Shown here: piece after piece, positions 28,235-64,000 of the stretch
Layout of the letters: each line of letters opens with the position of its first letter
Numbering within the stretch: position 1 is the first letter of the stretch
Assembly: GCF_001968985.1 (NCBI RefSeq)
Contig: NZ_MOEN01000006.1
Span: 1 to 64,000, forward strand
Source of the DNA: Desulfurobacterium indicum
GTDB taxonomy: Bacteria; Aquificota; Aquificia; Desulfurobacteriales; Desulfurobacteriaceae
Length of the DNA: 64,000 nt
Direction of reading: 5' to 3'
Notes under the pieces: generated by a model
The model's input: only the letters and a program-made list of their open reading frames with translations
Databases searched by the model: none
What the model was told of the DNA's origin: nothing
Made by a program: the position numbers and the translations under genes

Positions 28235-29428
28235 TTAACTCTTTTTCTTCCTGTATATGTAATAGGCACCACCGGCAAGAATTATAGGTGTAAATATCAT
28301 TCCTAGTCCGAATGCTATTGCGGGGAAGTGGCCGTAACCAAGCTCTACAAGTGGTAGTCTGTGTTCTGACCACCACGGACCGTGACAGTCAAGACAATGT
28401 AAAGCTTTTTCTTTAGGTAGGACTCCATGATTAAGCTGGAAGTATCTTGAAATTTCAACAAAGCTTTTGCCGTCCCAGTAAAGTCCTGCCGCTTTTGCTC
28501 CTGCTTTTATCGCTTTGTCCCTATCTCCTGTTGCAAAGATAATCCCTACTTTTATAGGTATGGGGACGTTGTGTTTTGTATCATATGGAACAATGGCGTA
28601 GTGATATTTAAATGGGTAAATTTTCCCGTCTTCCATGTTACCTACAGGTTCTGTGAAAGTAATTTTGCCTAATACACCTTCGACACCTTCGTCAGGTTTT
28701 TCAAGTTTTGCCTGGTTAAGTTTTCCATCTATAGCCGGAAGATAAAGTTTTCTTTTTCCGTTCCACCATCTGTATGCAGGGATTATGTTCTCTTTAATCT
28801 CCCTCTCTTCTCCCCATTTAACGCCCTCAAACTCAATTTTTCTCCAGTCTCTATGGAGTTCGCTTTTATGTATCACGGGTATATGGCATGTTTGACAGGC
28901 GATATGTTTTGTGTGGAAATGTTCTATAAACCAGCCTGTTAAACCTTTGTGGGGATGCTTGTGGCAGTCAGTACATGAAACCGGTTTTGCTTCTCTTGAA
29001 AAAGTGTCAACACCGACAGTTCCCACTTTATGATTTCGAAAAGCGTGACAGTCAACACAGTCCATACCTGCTGCCATATGGACATCGATATCTTTTGTTA
29101 CTTTCTTTGTGAATAGAGCAGAAGAAAGGTTTGGACGTTTGACGCCGTCACCGCCTCCGGAAAAGGCGTGACACAAGAGGCATACATCTTTAGAAGGTTT
29201 TGCCTGTATTTTTGATGCGATTTCCTGAAGGTTAATTTTTGCTTCATAATGCCATGTGCCATTTTCGTTGACGGGAACTTTCAAGCCGGTTTTGACACCT
29301 TTTCCGCCTCCGTATCCTGCAAGGTGACAGACGAGACAATCAATATCGGCTGCTGCTTCTTCAAACGTCATATCAGGTCTACTCGGTTTCCCCATGCTTA
29401 CGCCGTGGCACATGGAGCAACCGCTCAT
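28235..29428 (-). CDS. Octaheme c-type cytochrome (tetrathionate-reductase family), C-terminal part after in-frame TAA
   Basis: The 397 residues carry seven CxxCH haem-binding motifs (CSMCH, CLVCH, CLLCH, CVDCH, CTDCH, CQTCH, CLDCH) and a C-terminal membrane anchor (FGLGMIFTPIILAGGAYYIY). The FSGGGDGVK and DIDVHMAAGMDCVDCH blocks resemble the octaheme tetrathionate reductase family, whose members reduce S or N oxyanions in the periplasm. No signal peptide or ribosome-binding site precedes ATG 29428. The reading frame is continuous with the upstream fragment except for one TAA at 29476-29474, so this is the rest of that gene. Homology continues upstream of 29428 (KAPPGYEDKINGKLL). Confidence 0.75.
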   Translation of the reverse strand: MSGCSMCHGVSMGKPSRPDMTFEEAAADIDCLVCHLAGYGGGKGVKTGLKVPVNENGTWHYEAKINLQEIASKIQAKPSKDVCLLCHAFSGGGDGVKRPNLSSALFTKKVTKDIDVHMAAGMDCVDCHAFRNHKVGTVGVDTFSREAKPVSCTDCHKHPHKGLTGWFIEHFHTKHIACQTCHIPVIHKSELHRDWRKIEFEGVKWGEEREIKENIIPAYRWWNGKRKLYLPAIDGKLNQAKLEKPDEGVEGVLGKITFTEPVGNMEDGKIYPFKYHYAIVPYDTKHNVPIPIKVGIIFATGDRDKAIKAGAKAAGLYWDGKSFVEISRYFQLNHGVLPKEKALHCLDCHGPWWSEHRLPLVELGYGHFPAIAFGLGMIFTPIILAGGAYYIYRKKKS

Positions 29429-29473
29429 GAGTAATTTTCCGTTTATTTTGTCTTCATATCCAGGAGGTGCTTT

Positions 29474-29839
29474 TTAAAGCATTACTTTTCCGATCCAGTT
29501 GACTGTATGACCATTGAAAAATATGGACATACAGTAGTCGTTATAGTTGTGTTTTCCACCCCCTTTCGGGTTTTTCAGATTTACGACATCGTTTTCAACG
29601 TTGCTCATCTGAAAGTGATATGAATGGAATACATCTTCAACCTCTTTTTTGTGACAGGGAAGACAGCTTTTAGCACCTTCGTATTTTGTTCTTCCCAGCA
29701 TTTTAAATACTTCGGTGTGGTCTGCATACCTGTTTTCTGCATCGGAAAACAGGCTTCTTCTAACAGCTGCATGCCCGGCACCCGCAATTAATATAAAGCC
29801 GGCAGTAACAAGGGTGCACGTCTTTAGGGCCCTTCTCAT
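29474..29839 (-). CDS. Octaheme c-type cytochrome, N-terminal part ending at an in-frame TAA
   Basis: 121 residues with a signal peptide (LKTCTLVTAGFILIAGAGHA) and the first haem site CLPCH (about residue 59), then HSYHFQMSN and HNYNDYCMS. It stops at TAA 29476-29474 right after NWIGKVML. The same frame then continues with seven more haem motifs, giving eight in total, as in octaheme cytochromes. A good GGAGG precedes ATG 29839 and a strong promoter lies upstream, so the gene looks expressed. It may be a fresh pseudogene, a sequencing error or a read-through case. It is divergent from the [NiFe] hydrogenase operon. Confidence 0.75.
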   Translation of the reverse strand: MRRALKTCTLVTAGFILIAGAGHAAVRRSLFSDAENRYADHTEVFKMLGRTKYEGAKSCLPCHKKEVEDVFHSYHFQMSNVENDVVNLKNPKGGGKHNYNDYCMSIFFNGHTVNWIGKVML

Positions 29840-30136: not shown

Positions 30137-31216
30137 ATGGACAGAAACATGTTCACGGGGGGATTCCCAGGAACGATCTCCCGTCGTGGTTTCTTGCGTG
30201 CTTGTGCTATAGCCACAGCGGCTATGGGGCTTCCAATGGAAATGGTATCAAAGGTAGCTGAGGCTGCAGAAGATCCGAAAAGACCGAGAGTTGTTTGGCT
30301 TCATTTTCAGGAGTGTACAGGATGTTCTGAGTCTCTTTTGAGAGCTTCTCACCCTGACCTTGCTGCCTTAATACTTGACCTTATCGATCTTCAGTATCAT
30401 GAAACACTTATGGCAGGTGCTGGACCTCAGGCAGAAGAAGCTTTTGAAAAAGCTATCGAAGAGCCAAACTACATTCTTGTGGTTGAAGGTTCTATACCGA
30501 CAGGTGACTACGAAGATTTTTGTATGATCGGTGGTCATTCTGCTATGCATAATCTTAAGAGAGCTGCTAAAAATGCTCTTGCTATTATCAACATAGGAAC
30601 GTGTTCTGCTTACGGTGGTATTCCGGCTGCAAGGCCAAATCCTACAAAAGCAGTTGGTACCGGTGATATTATTAAGGATAAGCCTATTGTGAATGTTCCA
30701 GGTTGTCCTCCAAACCCATATAACTTCCTTTCAACGGTTCTCTACTTCCTTACGTTTAAGAAGCTTCCACCAACAGATATTTACGGAAGGCCACTCTTTG
30801 GTTATGGAAGGAGAATTCACGACCAGTGTGAAAGAAGACCTCACTTTGACGAAGGAAGATATGTTGAGCAGTTTGGTGATGAGGGACACAGGCTTGGTTA
30901 CTGTCTCTATAAGATGGGATGTAAAGCTCCAGAAACATTTTCTAACTGTTCAATAATCAGATTTAACGATGTTGAAGTATGGCCTGTTTCTGTTGGTAAC
31001 GGTTGTTACGGATGTACAGAACCGAACTTCTGGGATACTATGACACCGTTCCATGAGAGACTCCCAGGTATCAGTTTGCCTGTTAATGGTGGAATAATTG
31101 CAAATGCTACAGATATTGGTAAGAAAGCTCTTGGTATTACGGCAGCAGCTCTTGCTATTCATGCTGGTATCGGTGTAGCTAAAAGCCTTGCGAAAGGTAA
31201 AAAAGAGGAAGAATAA
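30137..31216 (+). CDS. hyaA: [NiFe] hydrogenase small subunit (Tat-exported)
   Basis: Electron-transfer subunit of a membrane-bound uptake hydrogenase. The twin-arginine signal SRRGFLRA (Arg16-Arg17) is followed by a hydrophobic stretch. The mature part begins near RPRVVWLHFQECTGCSESLLR, with the first Cys ligands of the proximal cluster. GTCSAYGGIPAA and NVPGCPPNP supply the other proximal Cys. IHDQCERR, EGHRLGYCLYKMGCKAP and NGCYGCTEPNFWD hold the distal and medial cluster ligands. The C-terminal hydrophobic helix (KALGITAAALAIHAGIGVA) can anchor it. 359 residues. GGAGGG precedes the ATG. The order small-large-cytochrome b is that of group 1 enzymes. Confidence 0.96.
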   Translation: MDRNMFTGGFPGTISRRGFLRACAIATAAMGLPMEMVSKVAEAAEDPKRPRVVWLHFQECTGCSESLLRASHPDLAALILDLIDLQYHETLMAGAGPQAEEAFEKAIEEPNYILVVEGSIPTGDYEDFCMIGGHSAMHNLKRAAKNALAIINIGTCSAYGGIPAARPNPTKAVGTGDIIKDKPIVNVPGCPPNPYNFLSTVLYFLTFKKLPPTDIYGRPLFGYGRRIHDQCERRPHFDEGRYVEQFGDEGHRLGYCLYKMGCKAPETFSNCSIIRFNDVEVWPVSVGNGCYGCTEPNFWDTMTPFHERLPGISLPVNGGIIANATDIGKKALGITAAALAIHAGIGVAKSLAKGKKEEE

Positions 31217-31251
31217 TTTTCAATAACAAAACCCCAGACGGAGGTTAAACT

Positions 31252-32976
31252 ATGGCGAAGAGAGTAGTTGTTGACCCTATTACGAGAATTGAGGGTCACT
31301 TACGTATAGAGGTTGAGGTGGAAAATGGCAGAATTAAAGATGCCGTTTCTTCTGCTCAGATGTGGAGAGGTCTTGAAAATATTATTATCGGAAGAAAGGC
31401 AGATGATGCCTGGATGTTTGCTCAAAGGACATGTGGTGTTTGTACAACAGTTCACGCTATTGCATCTGTGAGGTCTGTTGAAAATGCTCTTAAGCTTGAA
31501 ATTCCTTACAACGCTCAGATGGTAAGGAACCTTATTATTGCTTCTCACGCACTTCAGGATCATATCGTTCACTTTTATCATCTTTCTGCTCTTGACTGGG
31601 TTGATATTGTTTCAGCTCTCAAAGCAGACCCTAAAAAAGCTGCAGCAATAGCAGACAGCTATCAGAACTGGAAGCTTAACGGTGATTCTGTATTTAGGGC
31701 AGTTCAGGAGAAACTCAAGAAATTTGTAGCTTCAGGGCAACTCGGTATATTTGCTACAGGTTATTGGGGACATCCAGCAATGATTCTTCCACCGGAAGTA
31801 AACCTCATTGCGGTTACTCACTATCTCCAGGCTCTTGACTTCCAGAGAAAGGCATGTCAGGCAATTGCTATTCTCGGTGGTAAGAACCCACACATCCAGA
31901 ACCTTGCTGTTGGAGGTGTATCTACTGCTATTAATCCTGATAACGTTGCTACACTTAACATGGAGAGACTTGAATATATTAAGACACTTCTTGATGATGT
32001 TAGAGACTTTGTTCAAAATTGTTACCTTCCTGATGTTATTGCTATTGCGTCTTTCTACAAAGACTGGCTCGCTTACGGTAAGACAGGTGAGTACTACCTT
32101 GCTGTTCCTGAGCTTCCTCAGGATACGAAAGGTGAGACATTCGATCTTCCAGGTGGAACAGTAATTAACAATAAGGTTACACCTATTAAGAGTTTCTACG
32201 ATCCATACTTCATTAACAATGTTTATGAGAACATTACTCACGCCTGGTATGACGGTGACTGGACAAGGCATCCATGGGAAGAAGAGACAGTTCCTAAGTA
32301 CACAGGTCTTAAGCCTGACGGAACTGTTGATGAAAATGGTAAATATTCATGGTCAAAAGCTCCAAGATTCAAAGTTAACGGCGAATATGTTCCTATGGAA
32401 GTTGGTCCTCTTTCTCAGGTTCTTGCAGGATATCTTCAGGGACACAAGCTTACCAGGAAATGGGCTGACTACGCACTGAATCAGCTCAGCAGCATGGCTG
32501 GAACAAAGGTTACTATCGAAAACCTCAAGTCAACGCCAGGCCGTCACCTTGCAAGAGCGATCAGAGCTGCAATGATGGCAGATCTTGCCATGAAGCAGTG
32601 GGAGCAGCTTGTTGACAACATTGGAAGGGGCGATCTTGAGATCTTCAATCCACCATCCTATCCGCAGGGAGAAATAAGAGGTTGCGGTTTCCATGAAGCA
32701 CCACGTGGAGTTCTTTCTCACTGGTCTGTTGTTCACAATGGCGGAATAATGAAGAACTATCAGGAAGTTGTTCCTTCTACCTGGAATGCTGGTCCAAGAG
32801 ACAGCAAAGGGCAGAGAGGTCCTTATGAAACTGCTCTTATCGGTAATCCAGTTGTTGAACCAGAGAAGCCGCTTGAAGTTTTAAGAACTGTTCACTCATT
32901 TGACCCATGTATTGCATGTGCTGTTCACATGATTGATCCTGAAGGTAAGGAAATCGTTAAAGTTAAAGCTCTGTAA
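31252..32976 (+). CDS. hyaB: [NiFe] hydrogenase large subunit
   Basis: Catalytic subunit that splits H2 at a Ni-Fe site. The four Cys ligands are visible: RTCGVC (Cys61, Cys64) and DPCIACAVH (Cys553, Cys556). All are Cys, not selenocysteine. The 15-residue tail after His559 (MIDPEGKEIVKVKAL) is the part removed by the endopeptidase encoded downstream. 574 residues. It has no signal of its own and is carried across the membrane with the small subunit. GGAGG precedes ATG 31252. Confidence 0.97.
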   Translation: MAKRVVVDPITRIEGHLRIEVEVENGRIKDAVSSAQMWRGLENIIIGRKADDAWMFAQRTCGVCTTVHAIASVRSVENALKLEIPYNAQMVRNLIIASHALQDHIVHFYHLSALDWVDIVSALKADPKKAAAIADSYQNWKLNGDSVFRAVQEKLKKFVASGQLGIFATGYWGHPAMILPPEVNLIAVTHYLQALDFQRKACQAIAILGGKNPHIQNLAVGGVSTAINPDNVATLNMERLEYIKTLLDDVRDFVQNCYLPDVIAIASFYKDWLAYGKTGEYYLAVPELPQDTKGETFDLPGGTVINNKVTPIKSFYDPYFINNVYENITHAWYDGDWTRHPWEEETVPKYTGLKPDGTVDENGKYSWSKAPRFKVNGEYVPMEVGPLSQVLAGYLQGHKLTRKWADYALNQLSSMAGTKVTIENLKSTPGRHLARAIRAAMMADLAMKQWEQLVDNIGRGDLEIFNPPSYPQGEIRGCGFHEAPRGVLSHWSVVHNGGIMKNYQEVVPSTWNAGPRDSKGQRGPYETALIGNPVVEPEKPLEVLRTVHSFDPCIACAVHMIDPEGKEIVKVKAL

Positions 32977-32981
32977 TGTTT

Positions 32982-32998
32982 GGGGGCTTTAAGCCCCC
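32982..32998 (+). terminator. Palindromic hairpin between hydrogenase large subunit and cytochrome b
   Basis: GGGGGCTT-T-AAGCCCCC forms a tight stem right after the large-subunit stop. Only TTAATTT follows, so it is more likely to reduce or stabilise transcripts than to stop them fully. This would set more structural subunit than cytochrome. Confidence 0.6.
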
Positions 32999-33022
32999 TT
33001 AATTTCCTCAAGGAGGGAACTA

Positions 33023-33682
33023 ATGGCAGGTCACGGAAAAGATTATGAAAAAGTCTATGTCTGGAGCGTCCTGCTCAGGGTTTACCACTGGGTGTTTGCT
33101 CTTTCCATCTTTGTTCTTATTGCCACAGGCCTTTACATTGACTGGCCCTGGACAAATACATGGATGGAAGGGAGCCATCAGTGGACAATGGCTCTGATGA
33201 GGTATATCCACTATGTTGCAGGAATGCTCTTTACAATGGCTGTTATTACAAGAATTTACCTGTGGTTCTTTGGCAATAAAAACGAAAAAGTTTGGGATTT
33301 TGCTCCAATTACGCCAAGGAATATTAAAAACATGTTTACAACTGCTTTTTACTACGCTTATCTTACTGACAGCCACGAACACAGAACAGGCCATAACGCT
33401 ATGGCAGGTATGTCATACGTTATGACTATTCTTCTTGCTGTTGTTCAGTTTATTACAGGTTTCTATCTGCTTTATCCTGAAAGCAGTTTCTTCGTGAGCC
33501 TTGGTTCAATTTTTGGAACTCAGCAGACGGCAAGATTTATCCATCATATTCTCAACTGGTATTTCGCGATCTTTGCACTTGTTCACATCTACATTGCTTC
33601 CTGGAACGATATCAGGAATCCTGAAGGGCTTATTTCTTCTATCTTCTCAGGATATAAGTTTTTCCCGAAGGATCATCACTGA
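33023..33682 (+). CDS. hyaC: Hydrogenase cytochrome b subunit
   Basis: A 219-residue membrane protein with four hydrophobic helices and haem-ligand His: LLRVYHWVFALSIF (about residue 18), MRYIHYVAGMLF, FIHHILNWYFAIFALVHIYIAS. It passes electrons from the periplasmic hydrogenase to the quinone pool. It also has the LLYPESSFFVSLGSIFG loop of HyaC-like proteins. AAGGAGGG precedes the ATG. It is the last gene before a strong terminator. Confidence 0.93.
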   Translation: MAGHGKDYEKVYVWSVLLRVYHWVFALSIFVLIATGLYIDWPWTNTWMEGSHQWTMALMRYIHYVAGMLFTMAVITRIYLWFFGNKNEKVWDFAPITPRNIKNMFTTAFYYAYLTDSHEHRTGHNAMAGMSYVMTILLAVVQFITGFYLLYPESSFFVSLGSIFGTQQTARFIHHILNWYFAIFALVHIYIASWNDIRNPEGLISSIFSGYKFFPKDHH

Positions 33683-59478: not shown

Positions 59479-59507
59479 TTGACATCACAATTTAATTTTA
59501 CTAAACT
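59479..59507 (+). promoter_or_regulatory. Promoter of [FeFe] hydrogenase operon
   Basis: TTGACA (59479-59484) and TAAACT (59502-59507) are spaced by 17 bases, 41 bases before ATG 59549. Confidence 0.8.
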
Positions 59508-59548: not shown

Positions 59549-60967
59549 ATGTCTTTATTTGGTACGAAGAAAATAAGAACCTTCGCCCCGCCGAAAGATG
59601 CCAGAAAGGGGGGAGGAACATACCTTCCGGGAGAGCTGAAAGGTATCATCAAAATTAATACTGACAGGTGTGTGGCATGTGATACCTGTAGGCCTCACTG
59701 TCCAGCTGACGCCATCAATGGAAAGCTTGGAGAACCTCATTCTATTGATGTTGACCGCTGTATAGCCTGTGGTCAGTGCCTTGTTAACTGTCCTTTTCAG
59801 GCTATTGAGCAGATGTCTCAAATTGATGAGGTTTCTGCCAGGTTAAAAGATCCAAACACAGTAGTTGTTTTTGCACCTGCCCCGGCAGTGAGGGTGGCTC
59901 TCGCAGAAGAGTTTGGTGGTAAAACAGGAGAGCTTACTGTGGGTAGAATGTACAATGCCTTTAAAAAGCTTGGAAACAACGTAAAAATCTATGATATCAA
60001 CCTTGCTGCTGACCAGACAATCTGGGAAGAAGGAATGGAGTTTATCTGTAAGGTTCTTTATCATGTTGTTGGTTTGAAAAAGTGGGAAATTGATGAAGAA
60101 ATGGCAAAGGCTCTTGGGATTGAGCCAGTAACGATTAATCTCGAATGGTGTGAACACCATCCTCTTCCACACTTTACAAGCTGTTGCCCGGGATGGATAA
60201 GGTGGATGGAACTTTATGCACCTGCCGTTCGTCCTCATGTTTCAGGAACTAAATCTCCGCAGCAAATTTTTGGTCCATCTGCCAAAACCTGGGCTGCATT
60301 AGATGTATGGAAAGTTGATCCGAGAAAAGTCTATAACGTTACAGTAATGCCTTGTACATCAAAGATTTTTGAGGCTTCAAGGCCCGAGTTTAAGTCTGCT
60401 TATGAGTACCTGAAAGAAAACGGTAAGATTCCGGAAGATACACCTCCGTTTCCTGATGTTGATGCTGTTCTTACGACAAGGGATATGGCAGAGCTTCTCA
60501 GAAGAAACGGTATTAATCCTCTTGAAATGCCTGAAAAGATTGAAAATCCTGAGCCTACTGAAATATATACCGGTGGTGGAACAATTTTTGGAACATCTGG
60601 TGGTGTTACAGAAGCGGCTCTTCGTATGGCTTACTTTGTTCTTTCAGGTGAAGAGCCTCCAAAGTGGGATATCTATCCTGTTCGTGGTTATACAACAGGT
60701 ATTAGAGAGGCTGTTATTCCTATTCCTGTTAAGTTACTTGGAGGAAAAACTTTTGATCTTCAAGTTTGTGTTGTGAATGGAAACAGAAATCATCTTCCGC
60801 AGATAGTAAAAGAAGTTCTTGATGGAAGCTCCAAATATCACTGGATAGAGGTTATGAACTGTCCAGGTGGATGTGTTGACGGAGGAGGACAACCTGTTAA
60901 TGGTATGGGAACAGGCTGGATTGATGGGCTTTTCCCAATTCCAAAAGAAGTAGGAAATAGTATTTAA
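59549..60967 (+). CDS. hydA: [FeFe] hydrogenase catalytic subunit (HydA, Desulfovibrio-like)
   Basis: A 472-residue H2-splitting subunit. Two 4Fe-4S ferredoxin motifs are at Cys41-51 (CVACDTCRPHC) and Cys71-81 (CIACGQCLVNC). The H-cluster motifs are complete: TSCCPGW (Cys212 proton-transfer, Cys213 ligand), MPCTSKIFE (Cys269, Lys272, Glu275) and NCPGGCVDGGGQP (Cys438, Cys442). There is no Tat signal of its own. The Tat-bearing small subunit follows, so the pair should be exported together as in Desulfovibrio HydAB. GGGAGG precedes the ATG. Presence in a genome like this, together with a [NiFe] uptake enzyme, is unusual. Confidence 0.95.
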   Translation: MSLFGTKKIRTFAPPKDARKGGGTYLPGELKGIIKINTDRCVACDTCRPHCPADAINGKLGEPHSIDVDRCIACGQCLVNCPFQAIEQMSQIDEVSARLKDPNTVVVFAPAPAVRVALAEEFGGKTGELTVGRMYNAFKKLGNNVKIYDINLAADQTIWEEGMEFICKVLYHVVGLKKWEIDEEMAKALGIEPVTINLEWCEHHPLPHFTSCCPGWIRWMELYAPAVRPHVSGTKSPQQIFGPSAKTWAALDVWKVDPRKVYNVTVMPCTSKIFEASRPEFKSAYEYLKENGKIPEDTPPFPDVDAVLTTRDMAELLRRNGINPLEMPEKIENPEPTEIYTGGGTIFGTSGGVTEAALRMAYFVLSGEEPPKWDIYPVRGYTTGIREAVIPIPVKLLGGKTFDLQVCVVNGNRNHLPQIVKEVLDGSSKYHWIEVMNCPGGCVDGGGQPVNGMGTGWIDGLFPIPKEVGNSI

Positions 60968-60988
60968 ATTTGAGGGAGGTAAGAAAGA

Positions 60989-61351
60989 ATGAAGAGGTTA
61001 CCTTACAAGTATGAAGAAGGTCCCGCTTCTATGGTTGTTTCCAGAAGGGGATTTTTAAAGGTAACAGGTATCCTTGCTGCGTTTGTGGCTTTTGGAAAAG
61101 CGGTTATAGGTTACTTTTACGGTAAAAGGCATGACTATATTACATCAAGGCAAGATGGTCTTTACGAAGATGATAAGATTCACCAAAGAGAAGGACTTGC
61201 CGCTTCTCAAGAGAACCCGACAGTTAAAAAGTATTACGAAGAGTTTGGAGAATATCCGTTAAGTGAGAAATCCCATCACCTTCTCCATACGCATCATTAT
61301 TATGAAAGATGGCAATTAGCCAAAGCAAAAGGGGAGGTGTATCATGGCTAA
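60989..61351 (+). CDS. hydB: [FeFe] hydrogenase small subunit with Tat signal
   Basis: A 120-residue subunit. The twin-arginine motif SRRGFLKVTG (Arg19-Arg20) is followed by a hydrophobic core (ILAAFVAFGKAVIGYFYG). The C-terminal Fe-hydrogenase small-subunit domain has YITSRQDGLYEDDKIHQRE, ENPTVKKYYEEFGEYPLSEKSHHLLHTHHY. In Desulfovibrio the same domain is the end of the small subunit that wraps the catalytic one. The gene overlaps the cytochrome b gene by 8 bases. GGGAGG lies upstream of the start. Confidence 0.92.
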   Translation: MKRLPYKYEEGPASMVVSRRGFLKVTGILAAFVAFGKAVIGYFYGKRHDYITSRQDGLYEDDKIHQREGLAASQENPTVKKYYEEFGEYPLSEKSHHLLHTHHYYERWQLAKAKGEVYHG

Positions 61352-62042
61352 TGATTACATGAATAAAGTTCTAAAGTTTCCTCTTCCGAATAAGATTTTT
61401 CACAACGTTAACGCTGTAACCTGGTATATTCTTCTTATCACAGGTTTAATAGCTTACTTTAAGCTTGCTTCTCCGCAGACTATGGCTCTAATGATGAAGA
61501 TTCACATCTATACGGCTGTCATTTTTACGCTTAACTTCATAGCTTTTGTATTTATTACCCCTCATAGATTCTATATGATGCTTGATAGACTATTTACATG
61601 GGACAAGGATACGTTTGCCTGGTTTAAGAACTTTGGCGGTTATCCGAGGATGCTTGGAATTCCTTTTGGTCCTGAAGAGGTAGCACCTCAAGGTAAGTAC
61701 AACGCAGGTCAGAAGTTAAGTTATCCCATGTTTGTGTTCTTTGTTGCGATTCTTATCGTAACAGGATGGGGACTCTTTCTCTTTAAACATGCTCTTGGGA
61801 AAGGTTTATTTACCGTTATGTTTTATGTTCACGTTTGGGGTTCTATTCTTGTCAGTGCAATGGCAACATTCGGTCACGTTCCCCTTGCTCTTATTCACCC
61901 TGATGATGTTAAGGCAATGTTTAGATTTGGTCCTGGAACCGTACCTATAGAAGTTGCAGCTCATCACAACCCTAAGTGGGTTAAAAATGAAATTGTTGAA
62001 ATAGACCTTCCAAAAGATATTCCGGAGGGACATCACCACTAA
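61344..62042 (+). CDS. Di-haem-type cytochrome b subunit for [FeFe] hydrogenase
   Basis: A 232-residue membrane protein with four helices, resembling formate dehydrogenase gamma/HydC-like cytochromes. Candidate haem ligands are His in FHNVNAVTW (helix 1), KIHIYTAVIF (helix 2) and YVHVWGSILV with FGHVPLAL (helix 4). It probably passes electrons from the hydrogenase to menaquinone. GGGGAGG precedes ATG 61344. It ends in TAATG shared with the next start. Desulfovibrio HydAB instead uses soluble cytochrome c3, so a dedicated cytochrome b is notable. Confidence 0.88.
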   Translation: MANDYMNKVLKFPLPNKIFHNVNAVTWYILLITGLIAYFKLASPQTMALMMKIHIYTAVIFTLNFIAFVFITPHRFYMMLDRLFTWDKDTFAWFKNFGGYPRMLGIPFGPEEVAPQGKYNAGQKLSYPMFVFFVAILIVTGWGLFLFKHALGKGLFTVMFYVHVWGSILVSAMATFGHVPLALIHPDDVKAMFRFGPGTVPIEVAAHHNPKWVKNEIVEIDLPKDIPEGHHH

Positions 62043-63451
62043 TGAAATTTCGCATTGAAAGAGACTTTTTGGGAGAGGTATCTATCCCCGCTGACCGGTA
62101 TTATGGTGCTCACACCGCCCGGGCGGCGGGGAATTTTCCTATTTCAGGATATAAAGTTCCTTTTGAGCTTATACAGGGGTTTGCTTTCGTTAAAAAAGCT
62201 GCTGCTATTGTAAACGGAAGACTTGGCTATTTAGAAGAAGAGATTGTTAATGCAATAGTTAAATCGTGTGATGAAGTTCTTGAAGGTAAATTCAAAGAGG
62301 ATTTTATAGTTGATGCCTTTCAAGGTGGTGCAGGCACTTCTACAAACATGAACGTAAATGAAGTTATAGCTAACAGGGCAAATGAAATTTTGGGCAGTGA
62401 AAAGGGAAAATATTTTCCCGTTCATCCCCTTGAACATGTAAATCTTCATCAATCGACAAATGATACGTATCCAACGGCCCTTAAGATTGCTTCTCTCTTT
62501 CTTTTGAAGGAACTCAGTGAAAAGGTTGCTGAGTTTCAGGGGAGCCTTCAAAAGAAAGAGAAGGAGTTTGCTTCTATTGTAAAAATAGGCAGGACAGAGC
62601 TTCAGGAAGCTGTTCCCATAACGCTTGGCAGAGAGTTTTCCGGGTATGCTGACGCTATTTCCAGGGATAGATGGCGTATATGGAAGGCTATGGAGAGAAT
62701 AAGGATACTTAATATCGGTGGGACTGCCATTGGTACCGGTTTGGCAGCTCCAAGAGATTATATTTTTGAAATTATAGAAGTTTTGAGAGAGCTTACAGGT
62801 TTGAATATATCAAGGCATGAAAATCCTGTTTCTGTCACCGCTTTTGCTGACGACTTTGTAGAAGTAGCAGGAATTCTTGATGCATATGCATCAAACGTTT
62901 TTAAGATAGCAAACGATTTGAGACTCATGAATATGTTGAAAGAGATAAAGTTAAAACCTGTTCAGCCAGGTTCTTCCATAATGCCGGGAAAAGTTAATCC
63001 GGTTATCATGGAAGCTGCAACGCAGGTTGCAATTAGAGTTAAAGCCAATTTTTCAACGGTTAGAGAGTGTGCATCTCATGCCTCTTTTGAAATAGTGGAG
63101 TTTATGCCTCTGCTTGCTTTTTCTTTAATAGAAGCTTTAAAGCTTCTTATTAATATTTCTGAAATTCTCTCCAAGCACGTTGCTGAAATAAAGCCTATTT
63201 CCGAAAAGTGCCAGGAGTACTTTGAAAAAAGCTTTTCCCTTGTTACGGTTATGTTGCCTCTTATAGGTTATGAAAATGCGACAGAGATAGTTAAGGAGAT
63301 AAAAGAGAAGGGCGTGAAAAACATCAGGGATTATCTGACACAGAGGTTTGGGATGGAAGTTGTTGAAAAACTTCTGTCACCGGAATACCTTAATGCTCTT
63401 GGTTATGATGAAGAGGAATTAGAGGAGCTTTTAGATGAATTCAACACCTAA
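62042..63451 (+). CDS. aspA: Aspartate ammonia-lyase-like protein in hydrogenase operon
   Basis: A 469-residue member of the fumarase/aspartase superfamily: HQSTNDTYPTALKIA, GRTELQEAVPITLG and the signature GSSIMPGKVNPV. It should release ammonia from aspartate, giving fumarate. It overlaps the cytochrome b stop by one base and hydF by 17 bases. Aspartase-like genes recur beside hydE/F/G in other bacteria, recalled from memory. A link to ammonia supply for the bridging amine of the H-cluster is suggested by position but unproven. Confidence 0.88.
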   Translation: MKFRIERDFLGEVSIPADRYYGAHTARAAGNFPISGYKVPFELIQGFAFVKKAAAIVNGRLGYLEEEIVNAIVKSCDEVLEGKFKEDFIVDAFQGGAGTSTNMNVNEVIANRANEILGSEKGKYFPVHPLEHVNLHQSTNDTYPTALKIASLFLLKELSEKVAEFQGSLQKKEKEFASIVKIGRTELQEAVPITLGREFSGYADAISRDRWRIWKAMERIRILNIGGTAIGTGLAAPRDYIFEIIEVLRELTGLNISRHENPVSVTAFADDFVEVAGILDAYASNVFKIANDLRLMNMLKEIKLKPVQPGSSIMPGKVNPVIMEAATQVAIRVKANFSTVRECASHASFEIVEFMPLLAFSLIEALKLLINISEILSKHVAEIKPISEKCQEYFEKSFSLVTVMLPLIGYENATEIVKEIKEKGVKNIRDYLTQRFGMEVVEKLLSPEYLNALGYDEEELEELLDEFNT

Positions 63452-64000
63452 AGGACTGAGGCTTCACATAGGCGTTTTCGGCAGGACAAATGTAGGTAAG
63501 TCAAGTCTTATAAACCTTCTAACCGGTCAGGAGGTTTCTATAGTTTCCGAGATTCCAGGTACCACAACAGATGTTGTTGAGAAGGCGATGGAGATTCTCC
63601 CTATAGGCCCTGTTCTTTTTCTTGATACTGCCGGTGTAGATGACGAGTCTCTACTTGGGAAAGAGAGAATAAGAAAGGCAATGGAGATACTCAAACGTTG
63701 TGATGTAGCCGTTTTAGTTGTTGAACCTGATAGATTTACCGATTTCGAAGAACAGTTGATTGAAAGATTTGAAGAGAAAAAGATTCCTTTTGCCTTTGTT
63801 ATCAATAAAGTGGATTTTTCAAAACCGTCTGAAAGTTTTATTAAGAAGCTTGAAGAGAAAGCGCCTGTTATTCAAATTTCTGCAAAGAGCGATTCAAGGG
63901 AAGAAGCACTTTCAAAATTCAAAGAGATTTTACTTAAGGTTGTTCCTTCAGAGTTTTTAAAAGAACCGCAACTTATAGGTGACCTTGTTCCTCCCGGCGG
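63435..64000 (+). CDS. hydF: [FeFe] hydrogenase maturation GTPase HydF, N-terminal part
   Basis: The 188 visible residues begin MNSTPKGLRLHIGVFGRTNVGKSSL, with the P-loop GRTNVGKS. IPGTTTD (G2), DTAG (G3) and NKVD (G4) follow. The end reaches LVPPGG, the start of the HydF dimer domain. HydF is the scaffold on which HydE and HydG products are built into the diiron unit before transfer to HydA. The gene runs off the window, so the FeS-binding C-terminal domain is not seen. It overlaps the aspartase-like gene in another frame, a strong sign of one operon. Confidence 0.93.
   Translation, partial: MNSTPKGLRLHIGVFGRTNVGKSSLINLLTGQEVSIVSEIPGTTTDVVEKAMEILPIGPVLFLDTAGVDDESLLGKERIRKAMEILKRCDVAVLVVEPDRFTDFEEQLIERFEEKKIPFAFVINKVDFSKPSESFIKKLEEKAPVIQISAKSDSREEALSKFKEILLKVVPSEFLKEPQLIGDLVPPG

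Follow-up and report, generated by a model that had tools for sequence, protein, structure and literature searches.

Exported [FeFe] hydrogenases that are linked to a membrane cytochrome b are not without precedent. In Sporomusa ovata, HydA2 and HydB2 have been detected in an H2-oxidizing membrane complex whose cytochrome b partner is also encoded (PMC9430772). The assembly of [FeFe] enzymes has likewise been connected to an aspartate ammonia-lyase, AspA, as the gene linkage of aspA with hydF is published and AspA can act in vitro as the nitrogen source for the dithiomethylamine bridge (PMC11736057). The Aquificota hydrogenases discussed so far are [NiFe] enzymes (PMC5441870), and no paper on a Desulfurobacterium [FeFe] hydrogenase was found in the open literature searched, coverage of which was incomplete. 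Here, an operon at the end of a 64,000-nucleotide stretch from the genome of the thermophilic vent bacterium Desulfurobacterium indicum (NZ_MOEN01000006.1, positions 1 to 64,000; hereafter the window) would add a membrane [FeFe] H2 system to the Aquificota. The operon very probably encodes a membrane-bound, outward-facing [FeFe] hydrogenase together with its assembly factors, best read as an H2:quinone oxidoreductase. An initial annotation of the window was right in what it observed and mostly right in this interpretation; the enzyme is of an already known kind.

Five tightly packed genes on the forward strand, matched by the open reading frame (ORF) calls and lying where the initial annotation had placed them, form the part of the operon inside the window. 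The first, hydA (59549..60967), encodes the catalytic subunit, in which Pfam, motif and PDB comparisons identify an H-cluster domain and two [4Fe-4S] ferredoxin motifs. After a gap of 21 bp it is followed by hydB (60989..61351), for a small subunit (Fe_hyd_SSU, Pfam 2.1e-16) with the twin-arginine signal SRRGFLK. Overlapping hydB by 8 bp, hydC (61344..62042) encodes a four-helix, dihaem-type, FdnI-like cytochrome b (Ni_hydr_CYTB, PF01292 family, 1.2e-16), and shares 1 bp with aspA (62042..63451), which encodes a lyase of the aspartate ammonia-lyase type (PRK12273; GSSIMPGKVNP, QSTNDTYPT). The last gene, hydF, overlaps aspA by 17 bp and is cut by the window end (63435..64000); contig C6 (67955 bp) runs on, and the full gene extends to C6:64721 (complete HydF, 6e-162). 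Outside the window follow hydG (C6:64684-66150), an 88-residue ORF with no family match (C6:66192-66458; L004:7193-7459), and hydE (C6:66442-67542). The absence of hydE and hydG, which had been named at the outset as the chief way in which the proposal could fail, is ruled out, as both are encoded on this same contig no more than 3.6 kb past the window end. HydE, HydF, and HydG all score above the NCBI cut-offs, and the H-cluster maturation set is thus complete.

The order hydABC-aspA-hydFG-ORF-hydE is kept in two other genomes of the genus (G125, G124) and in one of the same family (G123), with protein identities of 52–99% across these three Desulfurobacteriaceae, well above chance. A promoter-like element, TTGACA-17-TAAACT, identified by consensus scan only, lies 41 bp before hydA on the forward strand (59479..59507) and is found again 5' of hydA in G125 and G124, with a looser version in G123. 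Directly 3' of hydG, a G+C-rich hairpin with a T-run (C6:66153-66174; L004:7154-7175) may attenuate transcription into the small ORF and hydE.

The three structural subunits each carry informative features. HydA matches Fe_hyd_lg_C (PF02906, 1.9e-58), and its H-cluster motifs TSCCPGW (L1), MPCxxK (L2), and ExMxCPGGCxxGGGQ (L3) are intact, as in group A enzymes, along with both CxxCxxCxxxC ferredoxin motifs. It scores 353 against NCBI TIGR02512, under the curated cut-off of 406, and its best PDB match is the Desulfovibrio desulfuricans periplasmic HydA (5e-89). No signal peptide was seen in the HydA sequence. The twin-arginine RR is present in 83 of 84 HydB homologues, and this twin-arginine translocation (Tat) signal on the small subunit would direct export of the hydrogenase. 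In HydC-linked HydB proteins, the hydrophobic stretch of the Tat signal is often followed by no clear signal-peptidase site, and the signal may therefore remain as a membrane anchor; a loose [AVS]xA motif is missing in 56 of 81 of them, but the pattern is a noisy one, and the HydB of a locus lacking HydC (L069) does not match it either. The model of HydC has four long helices (predicted local distance difference test (pLDDT) score, 89), and among known structures comes closest to the formate dehydrogenase-N cytochrome b, FdnI (1kqf_C; template modeling score 0.72-0.77, E 3e-6), as compared with E 0.05 for the Hyd-1 cytochrome b structure. All 82 homologues keep His-20, His-54, His-163, and His-178, and an NxGQK motif is common to HydC and FdnI. 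Fold and profile rule out a [NiFe]-type cytochrome.

Comparison across genomes places this architecture in a broad context. When the genomes of 84,980 species were sampled for the 80 HydA loci closest to the query, a choice biased toward the query, hydA, hydB, and hydC stood in a row in 78; of the two exceptions, one is truncated at a contig end, whereas the second, from Nitrospiraceae, is without hydC. The loci span Sutterellaceae, Selenomonadaceae, Shewanella, Sporomusa, Campylobacteraceae, Syntrophales, Thermodesulfobacteriales, and three Archaeoglobaceae metagenome-assembled genomes (MAGs), which shows the hydABC architecture to be widespread, across several phyla. By this distribution, and by the HydABC and HupSLC pair known in S. 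ovata (PMC9430772), the role proposed here is not confined to [NiFe] enzymes. As the query-type HydA occurs in only 5 of 136 Aquificota genomes, which are 5 of the 22 in the family, the operon is an accessory trait in Aquificota, and one that has possibly moved horizontally. In the HydA tree, the Desulfurobacterium enzymes fall in a strongly supported clade with those of Thermodesulfobacteriales, Campylobacter, Sutterellaceae, and Archaeoglobaceae, with D. desulfuricans HydA and the NADH-type enzymes outside it on long branches. The comparison with Desulfovibrio HydAB that had been suggested earlier has thus been made, and the enzyme is not simply a Desulfovibrio HydAB.

Two further observations concern the carriers themselves. 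The three Archaeoglobaceae MAGs (L038, L045, L070; with L117, L118) carry hydABC and maturases among neighbors that look archaeal by eye (CDC48-like AAA, CofE-like, and RrmJ-like), and a 2022 review describes [FeFe] hydrogenases as absent from Archaea (PMC8924675). In four Sutterellaceae genomes (G142, G148, G150, G151) and one of Schwartzia (G158), some of them isolates, HydA and HydF were found without a HydG over cut-off.

How these components might operate together can be outlined. HydEFG would build the H-cluster before export, in the cytoplasm, and the ammonium for its bridging ligand would probably come from AspA; if the operon is expressed, the Tat signal of HydB would carry folded HydA outside, where HydA would dock on HydC to form the complex. 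Electrons from H2 would then pass through the H-cluster, the two [4Fe-4S] clusters, and the two b hemes of the FdnI-like cytochrome to a menaquinone-type quinone, with the protons from H2 released outside. The initial proposal of an exported, cytochrome b-linked H2:quinone enzyme stands as regards the genes, the Tat motif, the HydC fold, and HydEFG, from which export and quinone activity are predicted. Several points weigh against this interpretation. HydB has neither an Fe-S cluster motif nor a C-terminal membrane helix, so that the electron path from HydA to the hemes is an assumption. HydEFG must in addition mature another [FeFe] enzyme, of the NADH type, that is encoded on contig C41, and their presence alone therefore says little about HydABC. 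Further complicating the assignment, the direction of H2 uptake, although expected, is not readable from sequence.

The HydABC complex might instead work mainly as a valve that is reversible or evolves H2, with quinol and the membrane potential as its driving forces. [FeFe] enzymes are in general reversible, and many HydABC carriers are fermenters, such as Selenomonas and Sutterellaceae. Quinol, however, has little reducing power for making H2, and H2 appears as the electron donor of Desulfurobacteriaceae in a published table (PMC5441870), so that a valve is improbable. It is very improbable that HydC belongs to a formate dehydrogenase-like enzyme and that HydAB is a soluble, Desulfovibrio-type periplasmic hydrogenase reducing c-type cytochromes, for although the best fold and profile matches of HydC are formate dehydrogenase cytochromes and multiheme cytochrome ORFs occur elsewhere in the window, hydB and hydC overlap here, adjoin each other in the 78 loci noted above, and lie in an operon without a formate dehydrogenase gene.

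The presence of an aspartase in a hydrogenase operon is explained by the published work on aspA (PMC11736057). The lyase scores 535.9 bits against PRK12273 aspartate ammonia-lyase (cut-off 510), has the SS-loop, and is predicted to have aspartase rather than fumarase activity. As the two remaining Lyase_1 proteins in this organism are assigned as ArgH (argininosuccinate lyase) and PurB (adenylosuccinate lyase), aspA encodes the sole aspartase-type Lyase_1 enzyme of the genome. That AspA is the fumarase of the genome is not favored, given the aspartase family score and the motif QSTND, class I fumarase not having been searched for.

A more confounding issue for understanding how the H-cluster is made in this organism comes from the glycine-cleavage proteins. 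In two recent reports (PMC12752695, PMC13360658), the bridging ligand derives from aminomethyl-lipoyl-H-protein, made with T-protein; in vivo assembly is said by one to require this species, which the other calls a fourth essential component. Papers with this model date from 2024 to 2026. The D. indicum genome, which is 99.98% complete, has no candidate for GcvT (PF01571), and its sole match to GcvH (PF01597) covers 44 residues in the biotin domain of a carboxylase, with EAMKM. GcvT scores in 94 of 112 Aquificota genomes outside the order, part of the 94 being only weakly GcvT-like, but in no genome among the 24 within it. Moreover, among 48 carrier genomes searched, HydF and HydG both pass the cut-off in 40, including this one; of these, 24 have neither a full-length GcvH nor a GcvT, 13 have the two proteins, and three have GcvH alone, where matches under 100 bits were scored absent as short partial hits taken for biotin carriers or YgfZ-like proteins. 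The 24 comprise five Desulfurobacteriaceae, two Campylobacteraceae, nine Sutterellaceae or relatives, three Archaeoglobaceae, three Selenomonas, and two other Bacillota. As isolates and one single-contig genome are among them, MAG gaps cannot account for all 24. A limited literature search found no discussion of hydrogenase carriers without glycine-cleavage proteins.

As a sequence lead, then, the genome evidence appears to conflict with the stated glycine-cleavage requirement. It is tentatively proposed, at a likelihood close to but short of even, that many natural [FeFe] makers, Desulfurobacterium among them, build the dithiomethylamine bridge without H- and T-proteins, and that one branch (Desulfurobacterium, Archaeoglobaceae, and some Syntrophales and Clostridia) carries out CO and CN chemistry on a HydG with a re-laid auxiliary cluster, mostly with a small dedicated partner protein. 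There is also a substantial, if clearly less than even, chance that the bridge is made as in current models with undetected analogues in place of the missing proteins, or that the enzyme is inactive. Very divergent proteins can escape family searches, and hydrogenase activity is here a prediction; yet PF01571 finds no candidate in so complete a genome while scoring in most Aquificota outside the order, the only PF01597 match is a biotin carrier, and the same gap recurs in other lineages that keep hydF and hydG. Genomes with hydA and hydEFG and without H- or T-protein offer natural test cases, in which either another C–N donor is used or the model is incomplete.

The HydG of the branch with the proposed re-laid cluster shows a second type of variation, within the enzyme itself. 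The radical S-adenosylmethionine CX3CX2C motif is present in the Desulfurobacterium protein (CVNDCDYC), whereas the canonical CX2CX22C of the auxiliary cluster is replaced by CTAGYRCGRTG...C, that is, CX5CX19C; in a gapless alignment to CTACYRM of 4wcx, the middle Cys has become Gly and a new Cys stands three residues on. CX5C HydG proteins occur in five Desulfurobacteriaceae, three Archaeoglobaceae, one Syntrophales, and one Peptoclostridium, and a Nitrospiraceae HydG with both cysteines is a possible intermediate. An ORF of about 85 residues lies directly 3' of hydG in 10 of 11 new-Cys loci (among them L026:11588, L027:9919, L028:13726, L038:13119, L069:14295, L083:14825, and L117-L119) versus 0 of 45 canonical loci, which include five plasmid-borne loci and two whose available sequence extends less than 200 bp beyond hydG. 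Loci L117-L119, which are three of the ten, were added once the pattern had been noticed, and all agreed with it. The pairing is not perfect, being broken by Peptoclostridium acidaminophilum, which has the hydG alone; nor is the variant cleanly tied to loss of glycine-cleavage genes, the L083 genome having both proteins. In a HydG tree without Peptoclostridium, the nine CX5C sequences form one clade (100/99) with Nitrospiraceae and Campylobacter as sister, so that the link with the ORF represents one or two evolutionary events, not ten. The 88-residue ORF product has no known fold or family in Pfam, NCBIfam, or the PDB and no plasmid match, and the protein is modeled as alpha-beta4-alpha (pLDDT 87). 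The small protein may be a HydG partner, and the linkage is offered as a lead by which the moved cluster Cys and the small gene could be used to probe how the auxiliary [5Fe-4S] site forms the iron synthon and passes it on.

The operon is not the only hydrogenase locus of this genome. As the initial annotation reported, a [NiFe] uptake hydrogenase with its own cytochrome b lies in the window (30137-33682); this cytochrome passes TIGR02125 and has only 23% local identity to HydC. The two uptake systems may divide their work by H2 level, CO, or oxygen exposure, as the initial annotation suggested. The trimeric NADH-type [FeFe] enzyme, which scores 774 bits and exceeds the cut-off of the group A6 model, is encoded on contig C41 together with NuoE- and NuoF-like genes, and HydEFG accordingly appear to serve at least two [FeFe] enzymes; the 3' end of the C41 locus (L029:1-3852) extends into a transposase-like ORF, where the contig ends. 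Two cytosolic-type [NiFe] enzymes are found on contigs C33 and C1. Beside the [NiFe] operon in the window, a multiheme cytochrome c gene on the reverse strand (28235-29839) appears to be split by an in-frame TAA (29474), possibly a nonsense mutation.

With the Desulfovibrio periplasmic HydAB, in which the Tat signal is also on the small subunit, the Desulfurobacterium enzyme shares an [FeFe] core of two subunits. The Desulfovibrio operon is not known to include a cytochrome b, and the HydA of D. desulfuricans is not part of the HydABC clade. Sporomusa ovata HydA2B2C2 has the same three subunits, with the Tat signal on HydB and a dihaem-type HydC, and likewise coexists with a [NiFe] HupSLC (PMC9430772); in contrast, the Desulfurobacterium HydA lies in another subclade, and its operon includes aspA and all maturases. 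The Shewanella cluster hydA-hydB-cytochrome b-hydG-hydX-hydEF (L084 to L112) also unites HydABC with full maturases and has a gene of unknown function, hydX, after hydG (PMC2991362). That 212-residue ORF, however, shows no detectable relation to the 88-residue ORF, and the Shewanella HydG has the canonical CX2CX22C in a cluster without aspA. A Tat-lipoprotein [FeFe] hydrogenase with a C-tail ferredoxin and a HybB-like quinol oxidase (PMC10924467) is similarly exported and tied to a quinone subunit in the membrane, and in one species hydEFG and aspA lie nearby, but it carries its signal on the catalytic subunit and has a HybB-like partner in place of an FdnI-like cytochrome b. Finally, in the hyd operons of Pagnier 2024 (PMC11736057) aspA adjoins hydF as it does here, whereas the model drawn from them feeds ammonium into glycine-cleavage proteins, which the Desulfurobacterium genome lacks.

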